Part shown: positions 48,912 through 54,275 of the stretch, piece after piece
Layout: every line of letters starts with the position of its first letter
How positions within the stretch are numbered: the stretch's first letter is position 1
Assembly (NCBI RefSeq): GCF_011326755.1
Contig: NZ_JAAOIE010000001.1
Location: 398,344 to 462,343 of the forward strand
Origin: Cochlodiniinecator piscidefendens
GTDB lineage: Bacteria; Pseudomonadota; Alphaproteobacteria; Rhodobacterales; Rhodobacteraceae
Direction of reading: 5' to 3'
Length of the DNA: 64,000 nt
The notes under the pieces: generated by a model
Told to the model about the DNA's origin: nothing
The model's database searches: none
What the model saw: only the letters and a program-made list of their open reading frames with translations
Position numbers and translations under genes: made by a program

Positions 48912-49973
48912 TCAATCAAAGCTTATGGTAACTTCATTCGACATCGGCAAAGATTGACAAGTTAAGATATCACCGTTTTCGATATCCACATCGTCCAGTG
49001 CCATCCGCGCACGCATATGTACCGTGCCTTTGCTTATCTTTGCCCTGCATGCGCCACACACCCCTGACTGACAGGAAAACGGCGGCGCCAATCCGGCCTT
49101 TCGCGCAGCATCCAACACTGTTTGGCCAGCCTTTACTGAGAGAGAGCGTAGCGTGCCATCTAAGTGAATTTTCACTTCGGCATTAACGCCTAAAATCCCA
49201 TCATCCAGCGTTGCTATCTGACCGTAACTCTCTGAATGAATTCTGCTTTTTGGTACATCCAAAGCCCCTAAGATCGCTTGTACATCCACATTCATTTTAC
49301 CCGGACCACACACATAATATTGCGTATCCTGAGCGTAAGGAGGATGTTCGTCGATCAAAGCCTTTACAGCATCGGCATCAACCTTTCCCTTACGCCAGTA
49401 TTCAAACCCCGACCACATCGAGGGCGCAGATAAAATATGCCTGACTATCAATCGACCGTCGTACATCTCCAGCAATTCATCCAACGCATCGCCAAATAGA
49501 ATATCACTCGCGGCCCTATTCCCATAGGCAAGGTAGGCAACTGAGTGAGGCTCATTGCACAACACCGAATGCAGCATGGAAAAAAGTGGCGTGATCCCCG
49601 AACCTGCGCCAAAGAAATAATGGCTACGGCGCAAATTTGGGGCAGTGTCTAAAACGAACCTACCATGCGGTGGCATTACGTCGATGGTATCGCCTACTGC
49701 GATGCTATCGTTAATATGATTGCTGACACAGCCGTATTTTACACGTTTGACCGTTATTTGCAGGCGCGCGCCTGACACAGGCGACGACGAAATAGAGTAA
49801 CTTCGCCGCTCCTCTTGACCGTTTAATCGAAACCTAAGCGAAAGGTGTTGCCCCGCGCGCCACCTAAAAACATCTGCCAAACGATCAGCTACATCAAACG
49901 CAATCGTTTTGGCCTGCCCTTCGATTTCATCTCTGACATCGCTTACAGTTAAAGCGTAGAAATTTTGGCTCAT
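48912..49973 (-). CDS. Ferredoxin-NAD(P) reductase with C-terminal plant-type 2Fe-2S domain (oxygenase reductase)
   Basis: 353 residues from the ATG at 49973, three bases after the oxygenase stop. FAD-binding domain with RRSYSISSSPVSGARL; NAD(P) domain with FFGAGSGITPLFSMLHSVL and YYVCGPGKMN; ferredoxin domain with PPFSCQSGVCGACRAKISKG and a final Cys in ILTCQSLP. This architecture (FNR plus C-terminal ferredoxin, as in PaaE or the GbcB/CntB group) passes electrons from NAD(P)H to a Rieske oxygenase. It pairs with the gene just upstream. Confidence 0.92.
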   Translation of the reverse strand: MSQNFYALTVSDVRDEIEGQAKTIAFDVADRLADVFRWRAGQHLSLRFRLNGQEERRSYSISSSPVSGARLQITVKRVKYGCVSNHINDSIAVGDTIDVMPPHGRFVLDTAPNLRRSHYFFGAGSGITPLFSMLHSVLCNEPHSVAYLAYGNRAASDILFGDALDELLEMYDGRLIVRHILSAPSMWSGFEYWRKGKVDADAVKALIDEHPPYAQDTQYYVCGPGKMNVDVQAILGALDVPKSRIHSESYGQIATLDDGILGVNAEVKIHLDGTLRSLSVKAGQTVLDAARKAGLAPPFSCQSGVCGACRAKISKGTVHMRARMALDDVDIENGDILTCQSLPMSNEVTISFD

Positions 49974-49975
49974 CT

Positions 49976-51127
49976 TTACTCTTCCAACCATTTCAAAATA
50001 ATCTTCTGATGTTCCAAAACGGGGGCTTCCCCTTTTGCAGCTGGACCGACTTCGTAATGTGGTGAAGACAGAGACTTTTGTTGCTGTTCACAAGCGTAAA
50101 TATCCTCTGCAGTAAAGTCTCCGCTGGCCATCGGGTCGTCTTCCGAAGTGGCGTCATCTTTCTTATATTTGCCCTCTAATCCAAAATTCGCCCAAAACCC
50201 GCTGGATCGCATTGCTTGTTTTGAAAACTCCCAAGCGCTGGCATTCGCGACTCTGCTTCGATTAACGACACGAGTTAGATCAGGCGCTAGTGGTTCAATG
50301 ATAAATATATTCCAACCATCTTCGGCTGCACCTATCCCAATTCCAGGGAAAAGCATAGGCACCCACGCCCCGACCTGGTCTTCGGGAATAACACGTGGCG
50401 CAGGCAACTTTTGACTTTGGTTTTCCGCGTATTCTGCCACTGGGGGTTCCCAAAACAGATAATGCGGCCCCACGAACCCGTATTCGGCCTTTGCATGATC
50501 ATACATCTGTAGAGTTCCAGAATGGAGATGGGCCAAATGATAAACATCTATATAGTTTTCAACCACGATTTTCCAATTGGCTTTGATTTCGTAGGAACTT
50601 TGCCCTTCTTCGTATTCTGGCAAATCTTCGGGTATATGTGGGCCGATCTGGTCATCTATTTCCCCGAACCAATCCATGATCGAACCTACATCAGGATCGG
50701 GGTGCACAAACAACATGCTCTTCCAAATATCCACGCTGGCGGGCTTCAATCCCAAACATGATTTATCAATCCCGTTGAATTCCCTATCTTCCTCTGGAAC
50801 CGAAATCAGATTGCCTTCCAGATCATAGGTCCAATCGTGATAAGGGCATGTCAAAGCTTTCTGCGTCTTTCCCACTGCCCGGATCAACTGCGTTCCCCGA
50901 TGTCGGCAAATGTTGTGAAACGCTCTTATTCGCCTATCTCGCCCCATCACGATGAAAATGCTATTCAAACCAGCCTGAACGCTCATGTACTGGCCTGGTT
51001 CACTGATGTCTTCCATCAGGCCCGCATACCGCCAAGTGGTTGAAAAAATCTGACGTTGCTCGCGATCAAACCAATCTTGAGAAGTGTATGCCTCAACAGG
51101 CAAATAGTGCAGCATTCGGGTCACCAT
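49976..51127 (-). CDS. Rieske-type aromatic-ring-hydroxylating/N-demethylating oxygenase, alpha subunit
   Basis: 383 residues. The Rieske cluster ligands are CRHRGTQL...LTCPYHDW (C-x-H and C-x2-H). The mononuclear iron site follows: KIVVENYIDVYHLAHLHSGT (two His). It has no beta-subunit gene and therefore resembles homotrimeric enzymes such as glycine-betaine, carnitine or stachydrine demethylases, but the YIDVYHLAHLH sequence does not let me name the substrate. The start overlaps the small membrane protein by seven bases. Regulated with its neighbours by the TetR gene at the head of the operon. Confidence 0.88.
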   Translation of the reverse strand: MVTRMLHYLPVEAYTSQDWFDREQRQIFSTTWRYAGLMEDISEPGQYMSVQAGLNSIFIVMGRDRRIRAFHNICRHRGTQLIRAVGKTQKALTCPYHDWTYDLEGNLISVPEEDREFNGIDKSCLGLKPASVDIWKSMLFVHPDPDVGSIMDWFGEIDDQIGPHIPEDLPEYEEGQSSYEIKANWKIVVENYIDVYHLAHLHSGTLQMYDHAKAEYGFVGPHYLFWEPPVAEYAENQSQKLPAPRVIPEDQVGAWVPMLFPGIGIGAAEDGWNIFIIEPLAPDLTRVVNRSRVANASAWEFSKQAMRSSGFWANFGLEGKYKKDDATSEDDPMASGDFTAEDIYACEQQQKSLSSPHYEVGPAAKGEAPVLEHQKIILKWLEE

Positions 51128-51381
51128 GATGCTCCTAGGAAATTGGGAAAGAAATCAAAAACGATCAACGAAAGCCCAAGAACACACCATGCGCCTTGCA
51201 CGGACCAAAACAAAACGGGGTCTTCATCACGTCTTACGTCGGACACGAGAAATGCGTGACCAGAATAAAAATTGGGCACAGTCCAATACAGAAACAATAC
51301 TCCCCAAAGAAACTGATATCCCAACGCCGTCGACACCATCAGCGCAACGAAGGTACTGTAATTTAACACACGCATATTCAT
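51121..51381 (-). CDS. Small two-helix membrane protein in the Rieske operon
   Basis: 86 residues from the ATG at 51381 (GTG 51387 and ATG 51375 are alternatives). Two hydrophobic helices: about 10-32 (FVALMVSTALGYQFLWGVLF) and about 60-80 (WSVQGAWCVLGLSLIVFDFF). No family recognised. It lies between the regulator and the oxygenase with a seven-base overlap, so it is probably a real member of the operon, perhaps a membrane partner or transporter accessory for the substrate. Confidence 0.65.
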   Translation of the reverse strand: MNMRVLNYSTFVALMVSTALGYQFLWGVLFLYWTVPNFYSGHAFLVSDVRRDEDPVLFWSVQGAWCVLGLSLIVFDFFPNFLGASW

Positions 51382-51389
51382 TTGCACTT

Positions 51390-51968
51390 TTACTCTTTTC
51401 TTAAGGAGCCAATAAGGATGTTAACGGCATTTCGGGCGTTTTCGGTCGCCTGCATCAGGGGTTCAAGAGAAATGCTATTAAAGTAAATCGCCATGATGCC
51501 ATGGGCGACGGCATTTGCTGTCACGTCTGGCACATTAGAAAACTCCGCATAGATTTCTTTTCTCAACAAAGTTTCAAACTGAGTAATGGTAGCGGCTAAA
51601 CGCGTTGCAAGAACGCTATTTGAAACACTTTTCATCGTGAGATCCGCAAACACAAAAATAAGCTGAGGACCGGGATCTTCGGGTTGGCCAAACAAGTAAT
51701 CGATCAGGACTTCCAGCCGTCTAGATGAAGGCAACGCATCCGCAATTGATTGGGTTTGTTTTTCGAGTTCAGCAACAACATGAGTAACAAGCAGGTCAAA
51801 CATATCATCTTTGTTTCCGAGGTGATGGCGCACCAAGGGACGCGTCATACTGGCCTCCTTTGCGATGACATCTAATGTCGCTCCTGAAACCCCATATCTT
51901 GATGCTGCACTAAGGTATGCAGCCAACACCTGTTCACGACGTTTCTCCTTATTAGATGGGCGAGGCAT
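51390..51968 (-). CDS. TetR-family transcriptional regulator
   Basis: 192 residues from the ATG at 51968 (MPRPSNKEKRREQVLAAYL), preceded by GGAG. The N-terminal HTH (about 10-55) has YGVSGATLDVIAKEASMTRP; LVRHHLGNKDDMFDLLVTHV is the following typical segment. The C-terminal ligand domain is of the BetI-like size. It heads the operon with the membrane protein, oxygenase and reductase, and a near-perfect palindrome 49 bases upstream is its likely operator, so it probably represses the whole unit until the substrate or a product binds. Confidence 0.88.
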   Translation of the reverse strand: MPRPSNKEKRREQVLAAYLSAASRYGVSGATLDVIAKEASMTRPLVRHHLGNKDDMFDLLVTHVVAELEKQTQSIADALPSSRRLEVLIDYLFGQPEDPGPQLIFVFADLTMKSVSNSVLATRLAATITQFETLLRKEIYAEFSNVPDVTANAVAHGIMAIYFNSISLEPLMQATENARNAVNILIGSLRKE

Positions 51969-52016
51969 ATCCACTCCAAAAATCAAACCTTCGAAATCAA
52001 ACTACTCCAAGAACAA

Positions 52017-52040
52017 TAAACTGTCAATTATGACAGTTTA
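52017..52040 (-). promoter_or_regulatory. Probable operator of the TetR/Rieske operon
   Basis: The 10-base arms TAAACTGTCA and TGACAGTTTA are perfect inverted copies around a four-base centre ATTA. On the minus strand the arm includes TTGACA (52027-52022), which with TAGTTT (52004-51999) gives a 17-base-spaced promoter pointing to the TetR gene, so a bound regulator would block it. Confidence 0.7.
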
Positions 52041-52295: not shown

Positions 52296-54275
52296 ATGAT
52301 TGAGTTAATTTTAGCGGCTATTGGCCTTATCGGCGTTGGATTTATTGTAGATTCAAATAGTGACGACGACGAAACAAACGAACCTTCCCCGAGAGATCCT
52401 TCCACACCATCCACCCAAGCGGATAATGTGACTGGAACCGCAGAGAACGACTTAATCAACCTTTTTGCAGGTGACGACGTTGCGACTGGCGGTACGGGTA
52501 ATGACGTAATCAACGGCATGGCAGGTTCTGACAATCTTAATGGCGGCGACGGTGACGACACCCTGCGCGGCGGCGGCGATAATGACACCCTCATTGGTGG
52601 GGCAGGAAATGATCGCTTAACAGATTCCGATTCCTCCAGCCGCGATGATATCTCTGGTGGTACTGGGGATGACTACATTGCAGGTGGCGGTGGCCATGAC
52701 ACCATATCCGGTGGTTTTGGCAACGACACTATTTTCGCTGGCTTTGGGGATGATCAGGTCACTGGCGGCGAAGGGAATGATTCAATTCTCGGCGGCGTCG
52801 GCCAAGACGAAATTTCCGGCGGTCATGGCGACGATACCGTATTTGGCGGCACCCGTGACGACACCGTTGGTGGTGGCGACGGCAATGACATGCTCTTTGG
52901 CGGCGATAACAACGATCTCGTGAACGGAAACGTAAATGATGACACCATTGTCGGCGGTCGCGGTCTTGATACGCTTAACGGTGGTTCAGGCAACGATATC
53001 CTTGTAGGGGCTGAAGAGCTATCTCATGATATGGGCATTGACGAATTAGATGGCGTTTCTGCCGATAGCTTCATCAGTCAAATCGCAACCAATGGCACGC
53101 AAATCGGGTCTGCTGGTGATGAGGGTGTTGCCGATGTGCTGAATGGTGGCGACGGTGATGATCTGCTTGTGGCCAGTTCTTCAGATACGCTTATCGGAGG
53201 CGATGGCCGTGACACGTTCCTTGTGGGCGACTGGGCCTCGGGGACAGAACCGGTTGTGATCAATGACTACGCAGCAGGCGAAGACTCTATTGTTCTGTCA
53301 ACCGCTGCAACCAGCCCAACAGTGACCATTACCGATGATGGTAACGGGAATGCGCAGGTTTCATTGGATGGTGAAACGGTGACAACCGTAAACGGAGCCT
53401 TCGGCACACTAACAGTGGCTGATATTCAGATTGAACAGCAACCAGAAAGCCTAACGCCTGATACAACTCCAACGGAGCCAACAACTCCGACGGAACCAAC
53501 AACACCGCCAGAGCCGACAACACCACCGGAGCCGACAGACCCGACGCCGGGGGGGCGCGAACCTATAGCTACTGGTGGGGTTGCGACAACCAGTGGTGAT
53601 AACTTCTTCGGAGCGAATGATGGCGTCACATTCAATGGACTAGGTGGTGCGGATGTGATTGCTGGCGGAACCGGAAATGACGTTCTTTCCGGTGGCGCGA
53701 ACGACGATCATGTTATTGGCCGCGCTGGAAATGATCTGTTAAGCGGCGGAAATGGCGACGACACACTTTGGGATGACTTGGGGGCAGACACCATAAATGC
53801 CGGTAATGGGGATGACACAGTTTTTTCAGCTGGCTTTTTCGATATGGATGAGTTTTTAGCTGATCTTCAAAATGTCAATTTCCCATTTCAAGCCGATGCT
53901 TTGGTTAGGAACACTGTTTTCGACTATTCAAATGATACTGACACCGTAGGAGACGAAATAAATCTTGGTGCCGGCGATGATGTGGTACACACAGGACATA
54001 GCGACACTATCACAAGCGGTGAAGGCTCTGACCGGATTATCCTCGGAGACTGGATCGGCGATGGAAATCCAATCGTAGTTACCGATTTCGATGTTTCCCA
54101 AGATGTTCTAGTCTTTAACTCAGCGACACTTCTTCCGAGTTCAGCAATTGAAATCGAAACAACCCCAGGATCAGGTGCAAATGTAAGCATCAATGGGCAG
54201 CTTGTTGCAATTGTACAGAACCCTGGCCCAACATTTAATACGTCACATGTTCAATTGGTGACCCGTACGGCCTAA
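52296..54275 (+). CDS. RTX-type calcium-binding repeat protein
   Basis: 659 residues. It begins with a hydrophobic segment (MIELILAAIGLIGVGFIVDS) followed by an acidic stretch. Two blocks of nonapeptide repeats (GGxGxDxUx: GGDGDDTLRGG, GGAGNDRLTD, GGTGDDYIAGG, GGEGNDSILGG and many more) fill about residues 50-245 and 445-505. Between them is a threonine/proline-rich spacer with EPTTPTEPTTPPEPTTPPEP. RTX proteins fold on calcium outside the cell, usually after type I secretion through an uncleaved C-terminal signal. No protease, lipase or toxin domain and no secretion genes are visible here; the N-terminal hydrophobic segment is common in Rhodobacterales members. Confidence 0.9.
   Translation: MIELILAAIGLIGVGFIVDSNSDDDETNEPSPRDPSTPSTQADNVTGTAENDLINLFAGDDVATGGTGNDVINGMAGSDNLNGGDGDDTLRGGGDNDTLIGGAGNDRLTDSDSSSRDDISGGTGDDYIAGGGGHDTISGGFGNDTIFAGFGDDQVTGGEGNDSILGGVGQDEISGGHGDDTVFGGTRDDTVGGGDGNDMLFGGDNNDLVNGNVNDDTIVGGRGLDTLNGGSGNDILVGAEELSHDMGIDELDGVSADSFISQIATNGTQIGSAGDEGVADVLNGGDGDDLLVASSSDTLIGGDGRDTFLVGDWASGTEPVVINDYAAGEDSIVLSTAATSPTVTITDDGNGNAQVSLDGETVTTVNGAFGTLTVADIQIEQQPESLTPDTTPTEPTTPTEPTTPPEPTTPPEPTDPTPGGREPIATGGVATTSGDNFFGANDGVTFNGLGGADVIAGGTGNDVLSGGANDDHVIGRAGNDLLSGGNGDDTLWDDLGADTINAGNGDDTVFSAGFFDMDEFLADLQNVNFPFQADALVRNTVFDYSNDTDTVGDEINLGAGDDVVHTGHSDTITSGEGSDRIILGDWIGDGNPIVVTDFDVSQDVLVFNSATLLPSSAIEIETTPGSGANVSINGQLVAIVQNPGPTFNTSHVQLVTRTA

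Follow-up and report, generated by a model that had tools for sequence, protein, structure and literature searches.

Within a 64,000-nucleotide stretch of the Cochlodiniinecator piscidefendens genome (contig NZ_JAAOIE010000001.1; hereafter the window), positions 48912-52040 hold a compact operon, all of whose genes lie on the minus strand, in which a gene for a small membrane protein sits between those for a TetR-family regulator and a Rieske oxygenase that we call R1. The operon opens with a perfect 10+10 bp inverted repeat, TAAACTGTCA-ATTA-TGACAGTTTA (52017-52040), the putative operator, and continues with the regulator (51390-51968; 192 residues from the ATG at 51968, the listed reading frame beginning at a TTG), the 86-residue membrane protein (51121-51381), the 383-residue oxygenase alpha subunit (49976-51127) and a 359-residue reductase with the domain order FAD-NAD-[2Fe-2S] (48912-49991). 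Eight bases separate the tetR and small genes, the small gene overlaps R1 by 7 bases, and R1 overlaps the reductase gene by 16 bases when the first reductase ATG is taken; a second in-frame ATG at 49973 is a possible alternative start. We found no beta-subunit gene among the four operon genes, nor in the neighbour clusters examined in related loci. An earlier note made from the DNA alone had listed the operator, the regulator, the small protein, the oxygenase lacking a beta subunit and the FNR-ferredoxin reductase, and all of these are present. Just past the operator, on the opposite strand, lies a frame for a 659-residue acidic repeat protein (52296-54275) with GGxGxD-type repeats that look RTX-like by eye.

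R1 matches two Pfam domains (Rieske, 62.7 bits, over the cut-off; Ring_hydroxyl_A, 91.6 bits), with Rieske ligands C74-x-H76 and C94-x2-H97, iron ligands H197, H202 and D342, and the bridging residue D194; the seven ligands are invariant in our alignment, giving R1 the signature of a Rieske alpha subunit. It comes near the cut-off of no NCBIfam equivalog, the best models being GbcA (NF058607, 126.3 bits where 670 are needed), anthranilate (101 of 672) and phenylpropionate (101 of 830). In a tree of 58 oxygenase sequences, the 28 R1 rows form one clade (support 100/99) and 8 rows that we call R2 form its sister (100/99; R1 and R2 together, 99/99), apart from the YeaW/CntA, GbcA-like and HcaE/NahAc/BenA rows. 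HcaE, NahAc, BenA and pNL1 group together (100/99) with R1 outside; the deep branching order is unsure because several branches in the tree are long. Judged by this tree, R1 is a clade without a characterised member, and its sister R2 is equally unnamed. The host's 3.7 Mb genome contains eight Rieske alpha-type matches, including a separate GbcA-like gene (G000:C5:13608-14810) that scores 499 bits, still under the cut-off. The R1 gene of Jhaorihella thermophila (L056; G110:C32:37793-38932) is broken by one in-frame TAG.

The active site separates R1 from the CntA/GbcA-type enzymes. The bridging residue is Asp in 28/28 R1 and 8/8 R2 rows and Glu in 17/17 rows on the CntA/GbcA side, as read by a script whose motif left 2 of the 58 rows (HcaE and L159) unmatched. 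A Cys-x-x-Cys beside the iron is absent from the R1 and R2 rows, the window's R1 having Val195 and Leu198 there. Two papers report a bridging glutamate (CntA E205) and a Cys-x-x-Cys, the latter in only some members, as marks of the CntA-like Group V, the quaternary-ammonium enzymes (PMC7948474, PMC10952381). R1 shows neither mark, nor does it group with CntA, YeaW and GbcA. Taken with the tree and the NCBIfam scores, this bears out the earlier note's impression that the oxygenase does not clearly match the glycine-betaine, carnitine or stachydrine demethylases.

Comparison with known systems gives the same picture of partial likeness. The carnitine monooxygenases CntA/CntB and YeaW/YeaX resemble the operon in having no beta subunit and a single flavin/[2Fe-2S] reductase, but sequence identity is 22%, and the operon has in addition a tetR gene and a membrane partner that is conserved. 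The glycine betaine monooxygenase components GbcA and GbcB supply the best NCBIfam match of the oxygenase and the second-best of the reductase (134 bits), yet both scores lie far below the cut-offs (500 for GbcB) and the GbcA-like rows carry the bridging Glu and the Cys pair. The alpha subunits of the benzoate, phenylpropionate and naphthalene dioxygenases (BenA, HcaE and NahAc) share the Rieske and catalytic domains with R1, the BenA row having the bridging Asp and NahAc an Asp shifted by one residue, but they differ in their clade and in the beta subunit that the operon lacks. The reductase exceeds the Pfam cut-offs for FAD_binding_6, NAD_binding_1 and Fer2, and its closest likeness is to the phenylacetyl-CoA epoxidase reductase PaaE (282 bits, below the 421 needed), from which it differs in that its partner here is a Rieske oxygenase.

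The small protein matched 0 Pfam families at E<=1 and no NCBIfam model, and ten of its relatives gave nothing above a curated Pfam cut-off (best E 0.018). In a 34-row alignment (A1), W26, G27, W33 and W65 are invariant, and G41, P55, L57 and W59 nearly so. The AlphaFold2 model (mean predicted local distance difference test score, pLDDT, 92.1; predicted template-modelling score 0.71) places helices at residues 3-19, 24-40 and 55-77 and a beta hairpin at 42-50, so that the earlier description of a two-helix protein is probably wrong. Foldseek found 0 matches to this fold in the PDB, and only viral ones at E>2. Almost the whole chain is made of membrane-like segments arranged around the charged hairpin, with arginines at the N-terminal end and in the hairpin; by the positive-inside rule, Arg4 and Arg50/51 suggest a cytosolic N-terminus and hairpin.

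The small gene and R1 travel together. Among the best 80 of 202 R1 relatives (62-82% identical; 956 kb of related loci in all, with neighbour clusters drawn from a greedy choice of reading frames that can miss genes), the small gene lies directly upstream of R1 on the same strand in 71, with a median gap of 6 bases and 70 of the 71 gaps at or below 60 bases; the five-part unit is therefore not a chance arrangement. The two proteins also diverge together: their pairwise distances show a correlation of r 0.89, a value reached in 0/999 permutations, with shared ancestry not removed. Of 295 genomes of the family, 9 encode the small protein (E<1e-9), 6 encode R1 and 2 encode R2 (E<=1e-60), and all eight genomes with R1 or R2 fall among the nine with the small protein (Fisher p 7e-15). 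The 80 relatives are mainly Rhodobacterales; by record titles they also include metagenome-assembled genomes (MAGs) labelled Granulosicoccaceae, Woeseiaceae, Thermoanaerobaculia, Bryobacterales, Dadabacteria, Poribacteria, Chloroflexi, Anaerolineae, Acidimicrobiia and others, among which binning errors are possible. Wider searches gave 3 matches in 398 genomes at phylum level and 2 in 274 genomes of the class of genome G703. The small frame is kept far beyond the genus; with this and the separate clade of R1, neither result that would have overturned the earlier note's reading came about. In L044 (7156-7641) and 22 further loci, many from Ruegeria, a gene between those for R1 and the reductase encodes a 162-residue protein whose start resembles a signal peptide and which matched no Pfam family.

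Relatives of the small protein also adjoin enzymes of other kinds. A Vibrio locus (L100, 4956-6454) has the small gene immediately before a gene for a B12-binding radical S-adenosylmethionine (SAM) enzyme, with no R1, and in two MAG loci, L087 (5707-9512) and L089, of sponge origin by their bin names, the order is small gene, R1, radical SAM, reductase. The radical SAM enzymes of L087 and L100 are 46% identical, and their nearest NCBIfam models, BchE and HpnJ with HpnR also among the nearest, lie far below cut-off. In L180:1415-2434 (G762:C170), from a genome of the G703 class, the small domain forms the C-terminal end of a 339-residue frame, and the portion ahead of it we take, by eye, to be two VOC domains.

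The regulator itself is a borderline family match (TetR_N 22.3 bits, E 1.1e-4, slightly under the curated cut-off of 24 bits) and falls well short of the BetI choline repressor models NF001978 and TIGR03384 (46.0 and 43.7 bits against cut-offs of 118 and 201). The palindrome lies 48 bases upstream of the tetR ATG and contains a consensus -35 box, TTGACA (52027-52022 on the minus strand), followed by a weak -10 box TAGTTT (52004-51999); both boxes were read by eye, and our promoter scan did not list the pair. Its core, TGTCA-N4-TGACA, occurs at 94 sites in the 80 related loci, 80 of them within the 22.9 kb around TetR starts, and stands near the TetR start in 50 of the 63 TetR-bearing loci; a plain shuffle yields 0.33 sites. 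Of the other 13, eight have a site elsewhere in the locus, five of these ahead of a DUF2141 gene standing first in the operon, and five have none; the core was found in none of the 17 loci lacking a tetR gene. This conservation of the operator in related loci supports the control by TetR that the earlier note had proposed.

Some relatives place further genes behind the same operator. In L025-L027 it stands 22-24 bases ahead of R2. It also precedes a gene that we take from its look to be a DUF1800 gene in L117 and L119 and, in a form with one mismatch, a GPH transporter gene in L028 and L029. The R2 loci of genomes G038 and G073 also contain aldehyde dehydrogenase, CoA ligase, GPH transporter, DUF2141 and small genes. 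Since the operator precedes such genes and the loci hold them, R1 and R2 belong to a larger oxidative pathway in some relatives. The Ruegeria loci L025-L029 all include a CoA ligase gene, L025-L027 combine R2 with the operator, and GPH transporter, DUF1501/DUF1800-like, patatin-like and LysR genes also occur among the five. The host presents a narrower case: the 24-bp operator is unique to this operon in its 3.70 Mb genome, with up to 3 mismatches allowed. Seven further exact core sites in the host were set aside as chance, because six lie inside long frames and one between cytochrome-oxidase-type genes. A wider regulon was likewise rejected in 22 other genomes, where the genes around 14 sites showed no clear pathway and the sites were mostly inside reading frames; one of the 14, L207, may lie near an R1 locus.

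We propose, with a probability of roughly 50%, that the operon encodes an inducible two-component Rieske monooxygenase that is docked at the inner face of the cytoplasmic membrane by its small helper and acts on a lipophilic substrate. Without ligand, TetR would occupy the palindrome over the -35 box, and a ligand, either the substrate or a relative of it, would lift the repressor off. Electrons would then pass from NAD(P)H through the FAD and [2Fe-2S] cluster of the reductase to the Rieske cluster of R1 and, in a presumed alpha-3 assembly, would cross the subunit boundary via Asp194 to the iron held by His197, His202 and Asp342, where O2 would oxidise the substrate, probably in a single step. 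The three-helix protein would dock the soluble oxygenase, or the oxygenase-reductase complex, on the membrane with its charged, conserved hairpin in the cytosol, and docking would admit a lipophilic, membrane-dissolved compound. This reading is favoured by the coupling of the small gene with R1, by the membrane-like make-up of the small protein and by the conserved operator; the relatives that adjoin the B12-radical-SAM enzyme, and the one fused behind two VOC-like domains, are what a docking module would lead one to expect. A bolder form of this idea, tentative and in our judgement somewhat doubtful, sees in the three-helix hairpin protein a docking module of a kind not described before, which recruits soluble redox and radical enzymes unrelated to one another (R1, R2, B12 radical SAM and VOC proteins) to the bilayer. 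On this view a separate small subunit would turn R1, in itself a Rieske oxygenase of the soluble type, into a membrane enzyme whose substrate is a lipid or another compound of marine hosts that dissolves in the bilayer.

Several observations weigh against docking and a lipophilic substrate. Nine of the 80 R1 loci (L025-L029, L068, L088, L093 and L098) have no small gene. In L025-L029 a six-helix ABC_membrane_3 protein is encoded in its stead between R1 and the reductase, which speaks for a membrane partner; this protein accompanies the small gene as well in 8 further loci. In the other four loci we found no partner in that place. The R2 paralogues of G073 and G038 (L160, L161) sit apart from the small gene, and relatives of the small protein occur with no oxygenase nearby in L106-L108 and G223, so the family may have another role. 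Those of L107 (4479-4661), L108 (4221-4403) and L106 (4564-4794) are shorter, at 61-77 residues. Docking is something we infer, and the lipophilic substrate is argued from the membrane partner and from neighbours in other genomes, not from those of the host. Finally, the best Foldseek matches to the R1 model (pLDDT 79.4) are CntA and Stc2, both of which act on small, water-soluble betaines.

That last result counts for a rival reading, in which R1 would oxidise quaternary-ammonium or N-methyl compounds as CntA, GbcA and Stc2 do, but with an active site that has diverged; it would take a marine betaine, with the small protein as an uptake or assembly helper. CntA is the closest solved fold (Z 30.6; 3.4 Å, 327 residues), followed by Stc2 (Z 29.2), but terephthalate dioxygenase is close behind at Z 28.9, and because the three match R1 about equally the fold does not choose a substrate. 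A two-component system lacking a beta subunit also suits a betaine enzyme, as do the origins of the carriers, by record titles, in corals, sponges, squid and algae, and the Y192 of the R1 rows, which in the alignment takes the position where CntA Y203 holds the ammonium group. Against this, R2 has Ala in place of that Tyr, R1 and R2 stand in their own well-supported clade, and the bridging Asp replaces a Glu whose change to Asp in CntA (E205D) is reported to kill the enzyme; the Cys pair is missing, and we recognised no betaine transporter or methylamine gene next to R1. We consider this reading unlikely. The same Asp, found also in the BenA and pNL1 rows, would fit a ring hydroxylase or aromatic O-demethylase that needs no beta subunit and works on aromatic or halogenated compounds, with the small protein only stabilising the complex, and so would the Ring_hydroxyl_A domain, the terephthalate dioxygenase fold and a PcaB/fumarase-type lyase gene beside R1 in 9 loci, mostly with TctCBA genes. 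Yet R1 lies outside the HcaE/NahAc/BenA clade and has no beta subunit, the neighbour clusters that we examined showed no recognisable ring-cleavage gene, and the lyase is confined to some Rhodobacterales and absent from the window, which leaves an aromatic substrate quite improbable.

A membrane partner throughout could instead mean that R1 is biosynthetic, hydroxylating or demethylating a component of the cell's own membrane such as a lipid, a quinone or a pigment. The single isolated operator of the host implies that no larger pathway is under this regulator there, the DUF2141 genes that open operons in 5 loci belong to a domain named in a paper on carotenoid genes, and the radical SAM enzyme found next to relatives of the small protein has HpnJ, HpnR and BchE among its closest NCBIfam models. 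Rarity speaks against such a role, R1 or R2 being found in 8/295 family genomes, as do the R2 loci, which have a catabolic look: they contain genes for a transporter, an aldehyde dehydrogenase, a CoA ligase and DUF1800, and some of these genes follow the same operator. We rate this reading very low. Other substrate clues were set aside. Homarine catabolism, a first guess, was dropped when a literature search gave no homarine link to such an operon and none of the data spoke for it; xsc and YeiH genes, which hint at taurine, lie beside the operon in two Ruegeria plasmids on the opposite strand and were not used; nor were the TctCBA genes and PcaB-like lyase, present in only 9 or 10 of the 80 loci and absent from the window, used for the substrate.

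The usual view of Rieske oxygenases is of soluble systems with two or three components. In keeping with this, a term search of the main text of a 2025 review of these enzymes did not return the word "membrane", and our literature search, which covered few subscription papers, found no paper with both "Rieske oxygenase" and "small membrane protein" and none describing this operon. Together with the lack of a convincing Pfam, NCBIfam or PDB match, this agrees with the earlier note's statement that the small protein is not a known part of such systems. What is new here is a clade of a known kind of enzyme and a new, conserved family of membrane partners. If the docked monooxygenase that we propose is real, a membrane-bound third component, conserved across genomes attributed to several phyla, would account for the access of such enzymes to water-insoluble substrates. 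Co-expression of the small gene would offer a handle on orphan Rieske enzymes that look inactive, and the R1/R2 regulon, with its common operator, would provide a lead to the substrate that can be tested in bacteria associated with corals and sponges.

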